DNA of 39,395 nucleotides from Anaerolineales bacterium (GTDB taxonomy: Bacteria; Chloroflexota; Anaerolineae; Anaerolineales; DRMV01): contig JALUDX010000101.1 in the NCBI GenBank assembly GCA_027053355.1, positions 1-39,395 on the forward strand, given 5' to 3'. A program made the translations under genes and the position numbers. Under the pieces are notes generated by a model that saw only the letters and a program-made list of their open reading frames with translations, had not been told where the DNA came from and did no database searches. Below are positions 28,091 to 39,395 of the stretch, piece after piece. The number at the start of each line of letters is the position of its first letter. The first letter of the stretch is position 1.

Positions 28091-28349
28091 TGACCGCTCA
28101 GCCCCGGCAAGGAGAAACCACAGAGGGTGCAGACTGACGGAAAAACGTGAGGCGGGAGGGGTTGAGGCACTGAGGGCTACCTGGTTACTTAGTGCTTGAT
28201 TGCCTTTCTTGGTGCCCTTGGTCTCTTGGCGTCCTTGGCGCTTTTGGCGCTCTTGGCGCTCTCCTCTGCGCCTCTCGGCGCGCCCTTGGCGACCTAAAAA
28301 TCCGCGGGCCTCCGTGTTAGCCGTGGTCTCCTTGTGGCTGAAGGGTTAC
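28091..28349. repeat. Degenerate intergenic repeat element related to the GTAAC...GTTAC family
   Basis: Right end GGCTGAAGGGTTAC, degenerate left end TGACCGCTCAGCC; interior has CTTGGCGCT-type iterations and AGGGTTGAGGCACTGAGG shared with other copies. Confidence 0.45.
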
Positions 28350-28367
28350 GAAAAAATGATTGGTGTT

Positions 28368-28409: not shown

Positions 28410-28478
28410 ACGGTTTCTGCGCAGGGCAATTTTGCGCGGGTTGTGTTATCATCCAATGCTGCACAGGAGAGGCCGAGA

Positions 28479-29144
28479 ATGACCGATTTTGTCACCGAAA
28501 CCCTGACCGGCTGGCAGGGGCAACCTTTTGCGCTGAAATGGCGCATTCCCCAGGATGCAGGCGCGGTGGCCGCGCTGATTTTGCCCGGCCTGCGCTACAC
28601 CCCCGACAAGCCGCTGCTTTACTACACCGCCCAGGCGCTGGCTCAGCGCGGGGTGCCCGTGGCCGCGGCGTGGCTCGACTACAGCCAGCCCGCCTTTCAG
28701 GAAGCCGAGCCGCAAACCCGCCTGCAATGGCTGCTGGCCGACGCTGAAGCCGCGCTGCAGGCCGTGCGGCGGCGCCCCGGCGTGAAGCAGGTGCTGCTGG
28801 TGGGGAAGTCCATCGGCACCCTGACCATGGGCGCGCTGTGGGGCGTGGGCGTGTTGGGCGACCTGGCGGCTTCCATCTGGCTGACGCCGCTGCTGGCCTT
28901 CCCCGCGGTGCAGAAAGCCGCCCGCCACGCCGACCGCCCTGCCCTGTTCGTCGCCAGCGAAGCCGACCCCTCCCACAACCCCGAAGGCTGGCAGGCCGTG
29001 GAAGCCAACCCCAACGCCCAAGCCTTGCTGCTGCCCCGCGGCGACCACAGCCTGGAAAACCCCGCCGACCTCGCCGACACCCTCACCCTGCACGCCGACG
29101 TGCTGACCGCGGTCATGCGCTTCTTAGACGACGCCCTCCCCTAA
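28479..29144 (+). CDS. Alpha/beta-hydrolase fold protein
   Basis: [29 protein letters not shown]...[14 protein letters not shown] (nucleophile elbow GKSIG)...GDHSLENP. Confidence 0.8.
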
Positions 29145-29194
29145 CCCACCTATCCTTCCTAACCTGCCTATCCCCTAACCTGATTCCCCTCACC

Positions 29195-32164
29195 ATGAAA
29201 ACACTGAAGATTATCGGCGCCCGCGTCCACAACCTGAAAAACCTCACCGTCGAAATGCCCCGCGAGAAACTGGTGGTCATCACCGGCCTGTCGGGATCCG
29301 GCAAGTCGTCGTTGGCCTTCGACACTATCTTCGCCGAGGGCCAGCGCCGCTACGTGGAATCCCTTTCCGCCTACGCCCGCCAGTTTTTGGGGCGGATGGA
29401 CAAGCCCGATGTGGACGCCATTGAAGGACTTTCGCCCGCGGTTTCCATTGACCAGAAAGGCGCTTCCCACAACCCTCGCTCCACCGTGGGCACCGTCACC
29501 GAAATTTACGACTACCTGCGCCTGCTGTTTGCCCGCGCGGGTGTGCCACACTGCCCCATCTGCGGGCGGGAAGTCACCCGCCAGTCGGCGCAGGAAATCG
29601 TGGACGCCATCCGCCGCCTGCCCGAAGGCAGCCGGGTGCTCATCCTCGCGCCGGTGGTGCGCGGCCGCAAGGGCACCCACCAAAACGTGCTGGAAGAAAT
29701 CCGCAAGTCGGGCTTTACCCGCGCCCGGGTGGACGGCACGGTTTACGACCTGGAAACCGACGAAATCAGCCTCGACCGCTACAAACAGCACACCATCGAA
29801 GCCGTGGTGGACCGCCTGGTCATCCGCACGCCCGCCGACCCGCAAGAGGAAGCCGACTTCCTCGCCCGCCTGACCGATTCGGTGGAAACCGCGCTCAAGT
29901 TCGGCGACGGCTACCTCACCGTCCACCGCCTGCCTTCCCGCGACGCCGAGGGTGACGAAGGCGAAGACCTGGCCTTTTCCGAGCACCTGGCCTGCCCGGA
30001 GCACGGTGTCAGCGTGCCGGAGTTGGAGCCGCGGCTGTTTTCCTTCAACACGCCCTACGGCGCGTGCCCGGTGTGTCAGGGCTTGGGCTTCACGCAAAAA
30101 ATTGACCCTGAACTGCTCATCCCCGACCCGTCGCTTTCCCTCGCCGAGGGGGCAATTGCAGCGCGGGAATGGACGCCCAACGCCATCCGCGGCGGCTTCT
30201 ATTGGGAGCGGCTGGTGGCGGTCGCCAAAGCCTACGGCATTGACCTGCACAAGCCGGTCAAAGACCTGCCCAAGGAGCAGTTGGACATCATCCTCTACGG
30301 CACGCAGGGCGAGCGGGTGCCGATGAAGAGCCGCCGCAGGCACACCATCCGCTACAAGCAGTTTGAGGGCGTCATTCCTAACCTTGAGCGCCGCTACCGG
30401 GAAACGCCCTCGGAGCACATGCGGGCGCGCATCGAAAGTTTCATGAGCAAAAAGCCCTGCCCGGCGTGCCACGGCGCACGCCTGCGCCCCGAAGCCCTTG
30501 CCGTTACCGTCGCGGGCGTGAACATCGTGGAGGTGACGTCGTGGGCGGTGAGTAGGACGTTGGGGTGGGTGAGGGAATTAGGGGAGCGGGATGCGGGAGA
30601 GGGGACGCGGGAGGAGGAAGGCGGGAAGGAACGCATCCCGCATCCATCCATCCCGCATCCCGCACTTTCCCCCCGCCAATACGCCATCGCCCGCCGCATC
30701 CTTCGCGAACTGGAAGCCCGTCTGGGCTTCATGGTGGACGTTGGCTTGGAATACCTCACCTTGGACCGCGCCGCAAACACCCTTTCCGGCGGCGAGGCGC
30801 AGCGCATCCGCTTAGCCACGCAAATCGGCTCGCGGCTGACCGGCGTGCTCTACGTGCTGGACGAGCCTTCCATCGGCCTGCACCCGCGCGACACCGACCG
30901 TCTGCTGCGCACCCTGAAGGGCTTACGCGACCTCGGCAACACCGTGCTGGTGGTGGAGCACGACCCCGAAACCATCCGCGCCGCCGATTGGGTGGTGGAC
31001 CTCGGCCCCGGCGCGGGCGAGCACGGCGGGCAGGTGGTCGCCGAGGGCACGGTGGACGACATCATCGCCAACCCCAACTCCCTCACCGGCGCGTACCTTT
31101 CGGGCCGGCTGCAGGTGCCCCTGCCCGAAAAGCGCCGCGCGGGCACGGGCGATTTCCTCACCATCGTGGGTGCGCGGGAAAACAACCTCAAGAACATCAC
31201 CGCGCGCATCCCCCTTGGCAAACTGGTGCTCGTGACCGGCGTTTCCGGATCGGGCAAGTCTTCCCTCGTGGTGGAAGTGCTTTACAAAGCCCTCGCCCGC
31301 CATCTCAACAGAGCCCGCACCCACCCCGGCAAGCACGACCGCATCGTAGGGCTGGAGCACCTGGACAAGGTTATCAACATTGACCAGTCGCCCATCGGGC
31401 GCACGCCGCGTTCCAACCCCGGCACCTACACCGGCCTGTTTGACCACATCCGCCAACTTTTCGCCCAATTGCCGGAAAGCAAAATCCGCGGCTACAAGCC
31501 CGGCCGGTTTTCGTTCAACGTCAAAGGCGGGCGGTGCGAGGCGTGTCAGGGGCAGGGGCAACTGCGGATTGAAATGCAGTTCCTGCCCGATGTGTACGTG
31601 CCGTGCGAAGTGTGCCACGGCGCGCGCTTCAACCGCGAAACCCTGCAGGTGCGCTTCAAGGGCTACAGCATCGCCGACGTGCTGGATATGACCGTGGAGC
31701 AGGCGATGGAGGTGTTTGCCGCCTTCCCCGCGATGATGCGCAAGTTGCAGACTTTAGCCGACGTGGGCTTGGGCTACATCCGCATCGGTCAGCCTGCGCC
31801 CACCCTTTCGGGCGGCGAAGCCCAGCGCGTCAAACTGGCGCGGGAACTTTCCAAGCGCCCCACCGGCCACACCCTCTACGTGCTGGACGAGCCCACCGTG
31901 GGCCTGCACGCCGCGGATGTGCACAAACTGATTGAGGTGCTCCAGCGCTTAGTGGATGCGGGCAACACGGTGGTGGTGATTGAGCACAACCTTGACCTCA
32001 TCAAAGTTGCCGACTGGATCATTGACCTCGGCCCGGAAGGCGGCGACCGCGGCGGCGAAATCGTAGCCGAGGGCACGCCCGAGCAAATCTGTCAGGTGGA
32101 AGCCTCGTACACCGGGCGCTACCTGCGGGCGTATGTGCGGGAGAATCATGGGGAGGGTGGGTGA
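29195..32164 (+). CDS. uvrA: Excinuclease ABC subunit UvrA
   Basis: [65 protein letters not shown]; two ABC modules, zinc-finger cysteines, [12 protein letters not shown]. Confidence 0.98.
30586..30663. repeat. In-frame CGGGATG-type 7-mer/inverted-repeat array inside uvrA
   Basis: gcgggatgcggga (30586-30598) and tcccgcatcccgc (30651-30663) are exact reverse complements; encodes low-complexity [29 protein letters not shown]. Confidence 0.85.
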
Positions 32165-32166
32165 AG

Positions 32167-32208
32167 CGGGATTCGGGATGCGGGGTTCGGGATTCGGGAT
32201 TCGGGAGG
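32167..32208 (+). repeat. 7-bp tandem repeat (CGGGATT-like)x6 just downstream of uvrA
   Basis: cgggatt cgggatg cggggtt cgggatt cgggatt cgggagg. Confidence 0.93.
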
Positions 32209-32327
32209 CGGCTGCTTTTTTCCTAACTCCCTAACCTCCTATCCTCCTTGCCTCGCAAATCCCAAATCGCCAACTGCCAATCGCCATTCATAACTCGCAA
32301 CTCGCAATTCATAATTCACAACCTGCC

Positions 32328-33086
32328 ATGTCCACACCCCCTGAACTTCTCCTCCACGCCGCCGAAACCCTCCGCCGCGCCCGGCGGGCAGTGGCCTTTA
32401 CCGGCGCGGGCATCTCGGTGGAAAGCGGCATTCCCCCTTTCCGCGGCCCCAACGGCCTATGGAGCCGCTACGACCCTACCGTGCTTGACCTGAACTACTT
32501 TTTCGCCCACCCTGCCGAATCGTGGGCGGTCATCAAGGAAATCTTCTACGACTTCTTCGGCCAGGCGCAGCCCAACCCGGCGCACCAGGCCTGCGCTCGC
32601 CTGGAAGCCGCCGGTTTCCTGCACGGCGTGATTACCCAAAACATCGACAACCTGCACCAGGAAGCCGGCAGCCGCCGGGTGATCGAATACCACGGCACCA
32701 GCCGCTGGCTGACCTGCACCGCCTGCGGGCACAGGCTGGAAGCCCGCCCCGACCTGCTGCGGGAACTGCCCCCGAAATGCCCCCGCTGCGGCGGCCTGCT
32801 GAAGCCCGATTTCGTCTTCTTTGGGGAAGCCATCCCCGCGGCGGCGCAGCAAGCCGCTTGGGAAGAAACCCGCCGCGCCGACGTCTGGCTGGTGGTGGGC
32901 ACTACGGGCGAAATTTACCCTGCCGCGCTGCTGCCCACCGTGGCGAAAGAGCACGGCGCGACGATTATTGAGGTCAACATTGCCCCTTCCAACTACACCG
33001 CTACCGTGACCGACATCTTCCTGCAGGGCAAAGCCAGCGAAGTGTGCGCCGCGCTGGCCGAGGCCGTGATGCGCGCAAAACCTTAG
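32328..33086 (+). CDS. Sir2 family NAD-dependent protein deacylase
   Basis: AVAFTGAGISVESGIPPFRGPNGLWSRYDP; ITQNIDNLHQEAGSRRVIEYHGT; CTACGHRLE...CPRCGGLLKPDFVFFGEAIP. Confidence 0.97.
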   Translation: MSTPPELLLHAAETLRRARRAVAFTGAGISVESGIPPFRGPNGLWSRYDPTVLDLNYFFAHPAESWAVIKEIFYDFFGQAQPNPAHQACARLEAAGFLHGVITQNIDNLHQEAGSRRVIEYHGTSRWLTCTACGHRLEARPDLLRELPPKCPRCGGLLKPDFVFFGEAIPAAAQQAAWEETRRADVWLVVGTTGEIYPAALLPTVAKEHGATIIEVNIAPSNYTATVTDIFLQGKASEVCAALAEAVMRAKP

Positions 33087-33119
33087 AAAACCTCCCCCAG
33101 ACGCCCCTGCCGCGAGCGG

Positions 33120-33428
33120 TTACGCCGACGTAGGCGTGTAAGGCCGAATTTGTTCTAAGATAGCGGCTTCTCGCTGATAAGCGCGGTACAGGTCCCAAGC
33201 GTGCTGCAAATTCAGCCAAAACTCAGGCGAGGTGCCGAAATAGCGCGCCAGCCGCAGGGCGGTTTCGGGCGTGATACCCCGCTTCCCCCGCACAATTTCG
33301 TTCACCCGCTGGTAGGGCATGTGCAGGGCGTCGGCCAGCGCCCGCTGGGTGAGCCCCATCGGCTGGAGAAATTCGGCCAGCAAAATTTCGCCCGGATGCG
33401 AAGGTGGTCGGTTGGTTGGAATACGCAT
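33120..33428 (-). CDS. higA: HigA-family antitoxin (XRE HTH)
   Basis: HPGEILLAEFLQPMGLTQRALADALHMPYQRVNEIVRGKRGITPETALRLARYFGTSPEFWLNLQHAWDL. Confidence 0.95.
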   Translation of the reverse strand: MRIPTNRPPSHPGEILLAEFLQPMGLTQRALADALHMPYQRVNEIVRGKRGITPETALRLARYFGTSPEFWLNLQHAWDLYRAYQREAAILEQIRPYTPTSA

Positions 33429-33473
33429 GGCGCAAACTCCACAGGGAAACGGTTTACCTCGGCGGCGGAAACG

Positions 33474-33770
33474 TTAGCGATGATAGTCGGTGATTTCCAC
33501 CTCGGTAGGCCCTTCCGGCGTCCAGACAAAGCAAATGCGGTAACGCTCGTTGATGCGGATGCTATACTGGCCTTGGCGGTCGCCGCGCAGGGCTTCAAGC
33601 CGGTTCGCGGGCGGCACCCGCAGATCCTCCAGCCGTGTAGCCGCGTTCAACATATCCAACTTGCGCTGCGCCACAGCCCACAATGCCCGCGGCAACTTGC
33701 GACGGGCAGCCGCAGTGTTGCGGCCATCGAAAATGTCAGCCGTGGCCTGGTCGTGGAACCGCCGAATCAC
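33474..33770 (-). CDS. higB: HigB-family (RelE-superfamily) toxin
   Basis: MIRRFHDQATADIFDGRNTAAARRKLP...RLEALRGDRQGQYSIRINERYRICFVWTPEGPTEVEITDYHR; directly upstream of higA. Confidence 0.95.
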   Translation of the reverse strand: MIRRFHDQATADIFDGRNTAAARRKLPRALWAVAQRKLDMLNAATRLEDLRVPPANRLEALRGDRQGQYSIRINERYRICFVWTPEGPTEVEITDYHR

Positions 33771-33888
33771 TGCATGGCCTCTCGCATCCTCAAGGTATTA
33801 GCATGATAGCACGGAACCCATGCTGCGTCAACCCACCAGGTAACAGCCAACCGTGTAACCAGCCAACCAACTTCCCCGGAGCCTCCCC

Positions 33889-34773
33889 ATGACCAACCTC
33901 CCCTGCCAAGCCCGCACCTGCATCATGGGCATCCTCAACGTCACCCCCGACAGTTTTTCGGGCGACGGCCTGCTGGCGCGCGGCGACGCGGTGCAGGCCG
34001 CCCTCGCTCAAGCGCGCAAATTCGTCGCCGCGGGCGCGGACATTCTGGACGTGGGCGGGGAAAGCACCCGCCCGGGCGCGCAGCCGGTTTCCGCCGAAGA
34101 GGAAGCCGCCCGCGTGGTGCCTGTGGTGCGGGCGTTAGCCGCCGAGTTCCCCGACGTGCTGATTTCGGTGGATACTTACAAGGCCACGGTGGCCGAAGCC
34201 GCGCTGGAAGCGGATGCGGGCATGGTCAACGATGTGTGGGGGCTGCGCGCCGACCCGCGCATGGCCGAAGTGATTGCCCGCCACCGCGCCTGGGCGGTGC
34301 TGATGCACAACCGCAGCACGCCGCAAAACGCCGAAGTGCGGGAACGCCTGGGCGGGCGCTATGTGGGCGTGGCTTACACCGATTTGCTCGCCGAGGTGAA
34401 GGCCGAACTGCTGGAAAGCGTGGCCTTGGCGCGGCAGGCGGGCATCCCCGACGAGCGCATCATCCTCGACCCCGGCATCGGCTTCGGCAAAACGGTGGAG
34501 CAAAACCTGGCGCTGGTGAACCGCCTGGATGAGATCCGCGCCCTCGGCTTCCCCCTGCTGCTGGGCGTTTCCCGCAAGTCGTTCATCGGCTACACGCTGA
34601 ACCTGCCGCCGGGCGAGCGCCTCGCGGGCACTGCCGCCGCGGTGGCGGTGGGCATTGTCCGCGGCGCAGACATCGTGCGCGTCCACGATGTAGCCTTCAT
34701 GGTGCAGGTCGCCCGCATGACCGACGCGATTTTGGGGCGGTGGGCTGCTGACACCGCCAATGGCAGCGGGTGA
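33889..34773 (+). CDS. folP: Dihydropteroate synthase
   Basis: CIMGILNVTPDSFSGDG; DILDVGGESTRPGAQPV; DPGIGFGKTVEQNLALVNRLDEI; GVSRKSFIG. Confidence 0.97.
   Translation: MTNLPCQARTCIMGILNVTPDSFSGDGLLARGDAVQAALAQARKFVAAGADILDVGGESTRPGAQPVSAEEEAARVVPVVRALAAEFPDVLISVDTYKATVAEAALEADAGMVNDVWGLRADPRMAEVIARHRAWAVLMHNRSTPQNAEVRERLGGRYVGVAYTDLLAEVKAELLESVALARQAGIPDERIILDPGIGFGKTVEQNLALVNRLDEIRALGFPLLLGVSRKSFIGYTLNLPPGERLAGTAAAVAVGIVRGADIVRVHDVAFMVQVARMTDAILGRWAADTANGSG
34712..34740. repeat. 29-bp direct repeat, left copy (inside the folP 3' end)
   Basis: cccgcatgaccgacgcgattttggggcgg, identical to 36618-36646. Confidence 0.97.
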
Positions 34774-34811
34774 ATGCAAGTTTCCCTGCAATATAATACG
34801 CCTCGCGTAAG

Positions 34812-34840
34812 GAAACGCTCATTTTGTAGGTAAGCGTTTC
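34812..34840. other. 8-bp inverted repeat between folP and the methyltransferase (GAAACGCT...AGCGTTTC)
   Basis: Exact arms at 34812-34819 and 34833-34840; could be a hairpin or an operator. Confidence 0.5.
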
Positions 34841-34852
34841 GCTGTTTTGAAC

Positions 34853-34881
34853 TTTGGAGAAGCCGCGCGGTTTGGTATACT
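34853..34881 (+). promoter_or_regulatory. Weak sigma70-like promoter candidate for the R-M operon (TTTGGA-N17-TATACT)
   Basis: Good -10 match and spacing, poor -35; about 30 bp upstream of the methyltransferase start. Confidence 0.35.
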
Positions 34882-34911
34882 AAAAGGGCATAGACAAAGT
34901 TTTATTGTCTC

Positions 34912-35796
34912 ATGCTTGGAGCGGATGATATGGGCATTGTCGCAAAACCAATGTTAGGCGATTGCAGGGAAGTGTTGAAAACCCTGCCTGACGACTCGAT
35001 CGATCTGGTCGTCACTTCGCCCCCTTACGCGGACAGGCGCAAACATACCTATGGCGGCGTTGCACCAGATGATTATGTTGCATGGTTTCTGCCCATTAGC
35101 GCCGAAATCAAGCGGGTATTGAAGCCTACAGGGACGTTCATCCTCAATATCAAAGAACGGGTTGTCAATGGGGAGCGCCACACTTACGTGTTGGAACTCA
35201 TCCTTGCTATGCGACAGCAAGGATGGCTGTGGACGGAAGAATTTATTTGGCATAAGAAAAACTCATATCCCGGCAAATGGCCCAATCGTTTTCGGGATGC
35301 ATGGGAGCGGTTGTTACAGTTCAATAAACAGCGTAAGTTCAATATGTATCAGGAAGCAGTCATGATACCGGTGGGCGATTGGGCACAAAAACGCCTGCGG
35401 AGGTTAAGCCCAACAGATAAGGTGCGCGACGTCTCGCGGGTGGGGAGTGGTTTTGGAAAACGGGTAGCAAATTGGGTGGGCAGAGAGAGGGTATATCCCA
35501 CCAATGTATTACATTTAGCAACAGAGACAAGAAATCGCCGCCATAGTGCCGTTTTCCCTGAGGCGTTGCCCGAATTTTTTATAAAATTGTTTACCAGAGA
35601 GGGAGATTGGGTGTTAGACCCTTTTATGGGGTCGGGAACGACTTTAAAGGTGGCCTATCGCTTGCGCCGCAATTCCATTGGCATCGATATTATGCCCGAA
35701 TACTACGAAATGGTACAGCGTGCTTTGGCATCTATGCAGCCGTACCTTTTGGAGCCTGAAGGAGTGTACGATGACGGGCAAACCTCTCGATCTTGA
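34912..35796 (+). CDS. DNA methyltransferase (TSPPY type; N4-cytosine or N6-adenine, beta-class motif order)
   Basis: LPDDSIDLVVTSPPYADRR (motif IV) ... EFFIKLFTREGDWVLDPFMGSGTTLKVAYRLRRNSIGIDI (motifs X-I). Confidence 0.95.
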   Translation: MLGADDMGIVAKPMLGDCREVLKTLPDDSIDLVVTSPPYADRRKHTYGGVAPDDYVAWFLPISAEIKRVLKPTGTFILNIKERVVNGERHTYVLELILAMRQQGWLWTEEFIWHKKNSYPGKWPNRFRDAWERLLQFNKQRKFNMYQEAVMIPVGDWAQKRLRRLSPTDKVRDVSRVGSGFGKRVANWVGRERVYPTNVLHLATETRNRRHSAVFPEALPEFFIKLFTREGDWVLDPFMGSGTTLKVAYRLRRNSIGIDIMPEYYEMVQRALASMQPYLLEPEGVYDDGQTSRS

Positions 35797-36514
35797 GTTG
35801 GTGGAGCAATATGTCGCTTCGCACATTTCTGTTTTTCATCAACGCCGTTTAGAGAGCCTCAAAAAACTGAGCCTGCGTAGAATTTTGAAGCGGAAAAACC
35901 CTTATCTGTTCCGTGCTAAGAACATTTTGACGGCAGAGGCATTGGTGAAAGGAATTTTGGACGCCCATTTGTCTTCGCAAGAAGAAACGCTTTTTGGTGA
36001 ATTTTTGGAAGACCTGAGCATCTTTGTTTGTGAGCAAGTATTTGGCGGACACAAATCCACGGCCGAAGGAATTGACCTGGAATTTCAACGAAGCGGCGTG
36101 TACTATATCGTCTCGATTAAATCGGGGCCAAATTGGGGAAACTACAGCCAGATTGAGCGAATGCGCCGCAATTTCAAACAGGCGGCCAAACGATTACGGC
36201 AGAATAAGGGCTTTACCATGCCCATTCAGGCAGTCAACGGTTGCGCCTACGGGAAGGACAGCAAGCCCGACAAGGGAGATTACTTCAAGTATTGTGGACA
36301 ACGCTTTTGGGAACTTGTTTCAGGCAATGAGCGGCTGTATCTGGATATTATCAAACCTTTGGGCTATCGGGCCAAAGAGAGGAACGAGGAATTTCAAGAG
36401 GCGTATGCCGCTCTGGTAAACCAGTTTAGCCTGGAATTGTTGCAAGAGTTTTGTTTGCCCACCGGCCAGATAGATTGGAACAAACTTGTCGCTTACAACG
36501 CAGCGGCTGCGTGA
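35771..36514 (+). CDS. Type II restriction endonuclease (PmeII-like family)
   Basis: Overlaps the methyltransferase 3' end by 26 nt. SSQEETLFGEFLEDLSIFVCEQVFGGHKSTAEGIDLEFQRSGVYYIVSIKSGPNWGNYSQIERMRRNFKQA is consistent with a PD-(D/E)xK-type core (GIDLEF...SIKSG) and recalled PmeII-like sequences. Confidence 0.75.
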   Translation: MTGKPLDLELVEQYVASHISVFHQRRLESLKKLSLRRILKRKNPYLFRAKNILTAEALVKGILDAHLSSQEETLFGEFLEDLSIFVCEQVFGGHKSTAEGIDLEFQRSGVYYIVSIKSGPNWGNYSQIERMRRNFKQAAKRLRQNKGFTMPIQAVNGCAYGKDSKPDKGDYFKYCGQRFWELVSGNERLYLDIIKPLGYRAKERNEEFQEAYAALVNQFSLELLQEFCLPTGQIDWNKLVAYNAAAA

Positions 36515-36617
36515 GGGCAAAAAAGCGGGTCATGCTCTCCGCCCAACCACCCATAAACGACTTTTAGCGCGCACAAGTGTCTTTCAATGGTTGGAATGGC
36601 GGTTATGTTGGGTCTCT

Positions 36618-36646
36618 CCCGCATGACCGACGCGATTTTGGGGCGG
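36618..36646. repeat. 29-bp direct repeat, right copy
   Basis: Identical to 34712-34740. Confidence 0.97.
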
Positions 36647-36682
36647 CAGCAGGCTGCCCAGACGCCCCCAGCCCAACCATAA
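36620..36682 (+). pseudogene. folP: Displaced 3'-terminal remnant of folP (RMTDAILGRQQAAQTPPAQP-stop)
   Basis: Same reading frame as the FolP C-terminus (RMTDAILGR), continuing to TAA at 36680-36682, 2 bp from the convergent rnd stop. Confidence 0.75.
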
Positions 36683-36684
36683 CG

Positions 36685-37809
36685 CTACGTCACTTCCCCC
36701 AACGCGGCCAAAATTTGCCGGCCAAAACGCTCGAAACGCCAGGGAATGTCGCGCATCAATGGCTGCAGCGCCTCCAACGTGGACGGATTGGCCGCGGCAA
36801 TGGCCTCCATGTGGCTACGCGGCAGCACCACATCCGAAGGCACCCCCATGGCCGCGGCAGCCCCTTGCCGCCAGCGCCGCAACGCCTCCAGCCGGGCAAT
36901 GGTGGCCTCGTCGGGCCGGGCGCGGCGGGTACGCGGTTCCGCAGGCGCACGCAACCCCGCCTGCACCGCGGCCAGCAACGCCTGACCGTATCGCCGCAGC
37001 GGGTGCCCCCGCATCCCCGGCACCGCGCGCAACTCCCCTGGCGTGCGGGGCAAAGCCCGAGCCAACGCCACCAGCGTTTTGTCGCCCAAAATTTTGAACG
37101 GCGGCACATTTCGGCGGCGGGCCTCCTCTTCCCGGAACTCCCAAAGCGCTTTGAGCACGGCCACCTGCTGCGGGGTGAGGTCGTGGCCGCCCCGCTGCCA
37201 CAACGGCGGCCGGCCTGGCGTCTCCAACGGCCGGGCCAGGCGGGCAAAATCTTCTTCGGCCAACGGCAGCAGACCGCGCGCTTCCAACGCCTCGGCCAGC
37301 CGCTCCCGCAGGGGGAGCAGGTAGTGCGTATCTAAGCGCGCATAATCGAGCAGTTCTCGCGGCAGGGGGCGCTGCCCCCAATCCGCCCGCTGGTAACGCT
37401 TTTCCACCCGCACCCCAAAATGCTGCGCCAGCAGCGCGCCCAGCCCCACCTTTTCGTACCCCAAAATGCGGGCGCTGACCATGGTATCGAACAGGTGGGC
37501 AAACGAAAAGCCAAAATCGCGGTGCAGGCCGAGGACGTCGTACTCCGCGGCGTGGAAAATCTTTTCCACCTGGGGGCTGGCAAACACCGGGGCCAACGGG
37601 CTCAAATCGTCCAACGCCAACGGGTCGACCAGATAATCGGCCTCGGCGGTAGAAAACTGCAACAAGCACACCTGCTCGCGATACGCGTGCAGGCTGTTGG
37701 CCTCGGTGTCCACGCCGATGCGCGGCTGAGCCCGCAAATGTGCGGCCAGGTCGCGCAGCGCGTCCGGGGTGTCGATCCAATGGGGGGGAGGGAGCGTAGG
37801 GGGCATCAC
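36685..37809 (-). CDS. rnd: Ribonuclease D (3'-5' exonuclease plus HRDC-like region)
   Basis: RIGVDTEANSLHAYREQVCLLQFSTAEADYLVDPLAL...FHAAEYDVLGLHRDFGF...FDTMVSARILGYEKVGLGALL...DYARLDTHYLLPLRERL. Confidence 0.93.
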   Translation of the reverse strand: MMPPTLPPPHWIDTPDALRDLAAHLRAQPRIGVDTEANSLHAYREQVCLLQFSTAEADYLVDPLALDDLSPLAPVFASPQVEKIFHAAEYDVLGLHRDFGFSFAHLFDTMVSARILGYEKVGLGALLAQHFGVRVEKRYQRADWGQRPLPRELLDYARLDTHYLLPLRERLAEALEARGLLPLAEEDFARLARPLETPGRPPLWQRGGHDLTPQQVAVLKALWEFREEEARRRNVPPFKILGDKTLVALARALPRTPGELRAVPGMRGHPLRRYGQALLAAVQAGLRAPAEPRTRRARPDEATIARLEALRRWRQGAAAAMGVPSDVVLPRSHMEAIAAANPSTLEALQPLMRDIPWRFERFGRQILAALGEVT

Positions 37810-39250: not shown

Positions 39251-39395
39251 CGCTCTTCTCGGTTACTGCTCGGTCTCATGGGCCGCGGAGTTTGGTAGTG
39301 GTCAAGTAGTAAGTGATGCAAGGCAGGGTTTTTCACAACCCTCTCCTCTCCCCCCAGCCGCCCCCTGAGCGAAGTCGAAGGGGTGCGGCTTCCCC

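Follow-up and report, generated by a model that had tools for sequence, protein, structure and literature searches.

How did a restriction-modification (R-M) gene pair come to lie between folP and rnd in this Anaerolineales genome, and what is recorded by the short direct repeat on either side of it? An earlier note on the stretch of DNA analysed here (39,395 nucleotides, hereafter the window) had proposed insertion of the pair into the 3' end of folP. The features on which the argument rests are as follows.

28443-34773, + strand: block hydrolase-uvrA-sir2-higBA-folP, collinear with G001 C36 and G004 C16 at low dS
33889-34773, + strand: folP (dihydropteroate synthase), complete; Pfam Pterin_bind 6.6e-83; TIGR01496 DHPS 306.7 bits, cut-off 162.6
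34712-34740, + strand: left repeat copy, inside folP (32-33 bp with one mismatch, from 34709)
34774-34911, + strand: leader from folP to the methyltransferase gene, low GC; G005 has a MITE-like insertion at about 34808
34912-35796, + strand: Type II DNA methyltransferase (MTase), beta-type order, SPPY motif; PF01555 1.2e-46; PADLOC MTase_II 3.2e-49
35753-36514, + strand: EcoO109I-family restriction endonuclease (REase); PF14511 1e-86; frame overlaps the MTase 3' end
36618-36646, + strand: right repeat copy, 103 bp past the REase stop; FolP frame open to a TAA at 36680-36682
36647-36684, + strand: spacer from the right copy to rnd; first ~13 bp common with G005, then complete divergence
36685-37809, - strand: rnd (ribonuclease D); dS 1.2-1.8 to congeners

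A direct repeat at the folP 3' end

Sequence comparison in the window confirmed the exact 29-bp direct repeat that the earlier note had placed at 34712-34740 and 36618-36646; with one mismatch allowed, the copies extend to 32 bp (97%) from 34709 and 36615. Such repeats are expected by chance at a rate of about 3e-8 in a window of equal size and composition. A search for the same junction elsewhere in the window genome (2.45 Mb, 215 contigs), which that note had suggested, found no third copy of the 29-mer with up to three mismatches, and a reversed control likewise gave none. Among the family genomes searched, the 29-mer was present only as two copies in G005, a second carrier of the arrangement, and as one weak folP match in G016. 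The right repeat copy of G005 matches the window folP over 33 bp.

As had also been claimed, the right copy continues in the FolP frame, reading RMTDAILGRQQAAQTPPAQP-TAA, with 2 bp left between this TAA and the stop codon of the convergent rnd gene at 36685, and the present FolP has a different C-terminus, GRWAADTANGSG, of which the last ~12 codons come after the left repeat. The further suggestion that the GRQQAAQ tail is the displaced original end of folP did not survive comparison. In the congeners G001, G003 and G004, which have no R-M pair at folP, a GNAT gene lies convergent to folP, and FolP ends in GKRPPADAA, RHKRTTP or RRAP; the FolP end of G002 is SSPKANASG and the neighbouring gene there is panB-like, and the right copy of G005 terminates at once (MTDAILGR-TAG). 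Because FolP tails vary freely in this way, among congeners and family members alike, the QQAAQ tail cannot be named the displaced original, and the selection of an ancestral tail from these sequences was abandoned since they are too variable.

FolP itself scored 382 bits against the NCBIfam model for Sul4, a sulfonamide-resistance enzyme (cut-off 600), and 307 bits against the general DHPS model. A Chloroflexota origin has been proposed for sul4, and a Sul4-model score above the DHPS score is consistent with that proposal; no resistance call is made.

The interval encodes an R-M pair and nothing else

Two further observations of the earlier note, the lower GC content of the interval and its lack of an integrase or transposase, were both borne out. 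GC content drops from 0.62-0.69 outside the repeat copies to 0.46-0.51 between them, and the MTase and REase are the only genes encoded there, with no integrase (or integrase fragment), transposase or other recombinase in the interval. The REase covers the full PF14511 model (profile positions 3-198 of 198) and, as judged from the profile matches and gene order, the interval is a self-contained two-gene Type II R-M system of the EcoO109I family. The MTase is likely to be of the type that modifies N4-cytosine. A consensus promoter for the R-M genes was not found on the + strand, and a phmmer search found no related solved structure.

Relative to G005, dN/dS is 0.03 for the MTase and 0.02 for the REase, the differences lying almost only at synonymous sites. 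Both R-M genes have therefore been kept functional over the divergence between the window genome (G000) and G005.

Congeners with and without R-M genes at folP

The comparison within the genus covered six genomes, that of the window included. In G005, an Anaerolineales metagenome-assembled genome (MAG; locus JALVOR010000062), folP, the R-M pair and the right repeat follow in the same order as in the window, with 97% identity over 34809-36658. Similarity stops 13 bp beyond the right repeat, past which G005 has repeat-like DNA, a putative tRNA gene (recognized by eye) and a radical-SAM gene, and not rnd. The gap between folP and the MTase gene of G005 (L014) holds a ~240-bp MITE-like insertion, which has the terminal inverted repeats GTAACTGTTCAGTCT and is accompanied by a short duplication of its target, and sequence related to this insertion begins just right of the G005 right repeat. 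An early TAG removes the last residues of the G005 REase; this may be an error, as the contig has only ~2x coverage according to its record.

The remaining congeners, G001, G002, G003 and G004, have folP without R-M genes and no second repeat copy. The comparison set beforehand as the refuting test was whether such relatives carry a folP ending in GRQQAAQTPPAQP beside rnd, and no uninterrupted folP-rnd junction of this kind was found in the congeners. Instead, a GNAT or panB-like gene adjoins folP, and every congener has rnd at another place, in most of them beside a different 3' neighbour; the GNAT gene of G000 and G005 is on a separate contig without folP. The congeners lacking R-M genes at folP hold one folP repeat copy, but their right flank is not orthologous to that of the window. 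Because folP-rnd adjacency is seen nowhere else, and the right flank is common neither to the two carriers nor to these congeners, these comparisons do not make the duplication directly visible. What stands of the proposed insertion is thus a repeat-bracketed, recombinase-free unit, present in the same form in G005 and contrasting with a single copy in the congeners without it; the predicted empty site does not.

G001 has a diverged R-M system of the same family at another site (L017:5887-7495; REase 73% identical), between lon-like protease and beta-glucosidase-like genes. It was rejected as a further repeat-bracketed case, having no bracketing repeat.

A break in synteny and divergence at the right repeat

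The gene rnd is the native right-hand neighbour. To the left of the R-M pair, the block from the hydrolase gene to folP is preceded (before ~28.45 kb) by rex, mreB and ATP synthase genes, and only in the window genome does this block lie between rex and R-M/rnd. In G001, G002 and G004 an RNA methyltransferase-like gene follows rex, and the block is therefore placed differently in the window genome. Within the block, higBA is collinear with G004 only; this higBA-like toxin-antitoxin pair (33120-33770, - strand) lies between sir2 and folP, and is present in G004 and unmatched at the same place in G001. Dispersed short repeats common to many contigs occur at 28190-28360, on the left border of the block.

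Synonymous divergence follows the same boundaries. To G001 or G004, dS is 0.12-0.36 in uvrA, sir2, higBA and folP, and 0.79 in mreB, 1.28 in atpC and 1.2-1.8 in rnd; the slowly evolving atpD (0.38) is the exception among the flanking genes. Between G000 and G005 the values are 0.07 for the REase, 0.11 for the MTase, 0.21 for folP and 1.74 for rnd. The right repeat coincides with the break in both synteny and divergence. Read most simply, the dS values point to an exchange of the block and the R-M genes between species at a later time than the divergence of rnd, with the R-M pair on the right edge of the exchanged block. Apparently, then, the pair sits at the edge of a chromosome block that was transferred or translocated. 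An association between R-M genes and rearrangement across the congeners was not significant, the sample being too small.

The contig itself ends in a ~100-bp repeat (39295-39395) that is 99-100% identical on several contigs of the same genome, partly at contig ends, and this is probably why the assembly stopped.

Flanking repeats in the wider R-M family

A wider set of 80 loci was collected by endonuclease similarity, and in nearly all of them the MTase gene lies directly upstream. Significant direct repeats flank the pair in three (those of G005, Leptolinea tardivitalis and a Bacteroidetes MAG), compared with two of 240 control pairs, both from one locus. On either side of the L. tardivitalis pair (L054; MTase 70% and REase 57% identical to the window proteins) stands a copy of a 76-bp repeat (98.7% identity), the right copy beginning directly behind the REase stop. 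This pair has a glycosyltransferase gene and an ABC-F gene as its neighbours; in Leptolinea sp. HRD-7 the same two genes lie next to each other, with no R-M genes and with 57 bp separating the matches. In the Bacteroidetes MAG (L105:1-6998) an R-M system of the family is located within a five-repeat array (~44-110 bp per repeat) resembling integron attC sites.

R-M systems of this family were found in 73 of 396 genomes of the class. At 40 further class loci an MTase homologue lies directly upstream of the REase in all but one (39/40), and none has a flanking repeat of at least 20 bp. With no such repeat at these 40 loci and three cases in the set of 80, flanking repeats were rejected as a general habit of the family; the repeat footprint, although real, is uncommon, as a decay of old repeats would predict.

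Origin of the arrangement

Five things are seen directly: the repeat, an intact R-M pair under purifying selection, the occurrence of this arrangement in another species as well, the lack of a second copy in congeners without R-M genes at folP, and the break in synteny and divergence that falls at the right repeat. Together, they suggest that the R-M pair was probably inserted at the folP 3' end with duplication of its target, and that the folP-R-M unit was later shared and now forms the edge of a block beside rnd. On this account, a self-contained Type II pair would have entered the 3' end of folP and left ~30-33 bp of the gene duplicated on the far side of the R-M genes. FolP would have stayed whole, since its frame continues from the left copy into 12 residues of new or altered tail. 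This unit of folP and R-M genes would then have been shared between congeners, and a roughly 8-kb block, uvrA-sir2-higBA-folP-R-M, would have been transferred or translocated beside rnd with the R-M pair as its right edge. We infer this order of events, as we do the origin of the repeat by target duplication and not as a carried-in copy. The joining was probably a matter of break repair or illegitimate recombination, an event that restriction breaks possibly provoked. A target-sequence repeat at both edges, a recombinase-free unit and a linked genome rearrangement are what the locus shares with the insertion class, and the bracketed Leptolinea pair with its R-M-free counterpart in HRD-7 also speaks for this reading; against it, no exact empty site exists for the window, there are only two carriers, which differ to the right of the right repeat, flanking repeats are exceptional in the R-M family, and the repeat is shorter than is typical of such insertions.

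A bolder proposal is doubtful, namely that the R-M pair inserted at folP and itself caused the neighbouring uvrA-sir2-higBA-folP block to be captured or relocated; the pair would then be a maker of breakpoints and the selected edge of a tract transferred between species, with right flanks that differ in the two species.

It is unlikely that the right copy is instead a short folP fragment carried in with the R-M genes from a donor, with entry through homologous recombination within folP or to its left and through an illegitimate join on the right side. The low dS of folP and the leftward block to other species, not shared by rnd, would fit such a route, as would the differing right flanks of G000 and G005. 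In G005 the 22 bp left of the repeat also resemble folP in register (12/22, p ~0.004 against shuffles), a post hoc similarity judged too weak to be kept as an older folP remnant. However, an earlier event that placed the folP end behind the R-M genes would still be required, and the Leptolinea case has a clean bracketing repeat without folP.

Less probable again is a cryptic integrative element, in which the 29-mer would be an att core recombined by a tyrosine integrase supplied in trans, with regeneration of the folP 3' end. The gene-3'-end site, the length of the core and the restored frame would resemble islands in the 3' ends of tRNA and protein genes. The interval, however, has no integrase or fragment of one, the 29-mer is found nowhere else in the genome, the homologous R-M pair of G001 has other neighbouring genes and no repeats, and nearly all other members of the R-M family examined have no flanking repeat.

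A chimeric contig joined at the repeat is very improbable: the window genome and G005 are both fragmented assemblies, and the two carriers differ in right flank with G005 at low recorded coverage, yet the entire stretch from folP to the right repeat occurs in both assemblies, the R-M genes are co-conserved and under selection, and, set against the k-mers usual in final assembly, a repeat of 29 bp is short.

Insertion with target duplication, the preferred account, adds, for a lineage that is uncultured, a clear repeat-bracketed R-M insertion that has its match in a cultured relative, L. tardivitalis. Because the carriers differ in right flank and synonymous divergence rises sharply at the insertion, the locus offers a small natural test of whether R-M genes move alone and mark rearrangement points, and its consequences are confined to that question.

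Comparison with known systems

The window pair resembles other EcoO109I-family (PF14511) systems in the whole-model endonuclease match and in the adjacent, overlapping MTase and REase genes. It differs in its partner enzyme, an N4/N6 MTase of beta type that carries an SPPY motif, whereas the native partner of EcoO109I is a 5-methylcytosine enzyme. For a member of this family, cleavage would be predicted at RGGNCCY or a related site. With integrative elements that use att sites in gene 3' ends, the interval has in common a restored gene end and a direct repeat at both edges, but it contains the R-M pair only and no integrase. The L. tardivitalis locus offers the same gene pair, a flanking repeat and a counterpart free of R-M genes in HRD-7; its target is intergenic, and its repeat is of another sequence and length.

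The closest likeness is to R-M 'insertion with long target duplication', which is reportedly the subject of work by Nobusato et al. in 2000 and Furuta et al. in 2010. Common to that class and the window are a lone Type II R-M pair, the lack of recombinase genes, a direct repeat of the target and a rearrangement. The window repeat is ~30 bp long, compared with the ~100 bp reported as typical, and the present case is found in the 3' end of a folate gene of an uncultured Anaerolineales bacterium, with no exact empty site recovered. R-M insertions with long, variable target duplications, tied to rearrangements, are described in reviews (PMC3874152, PMC3031569). The locus is best read as fitting this known R-M insertion framework in kind, and as a new case of a known phenomenon.
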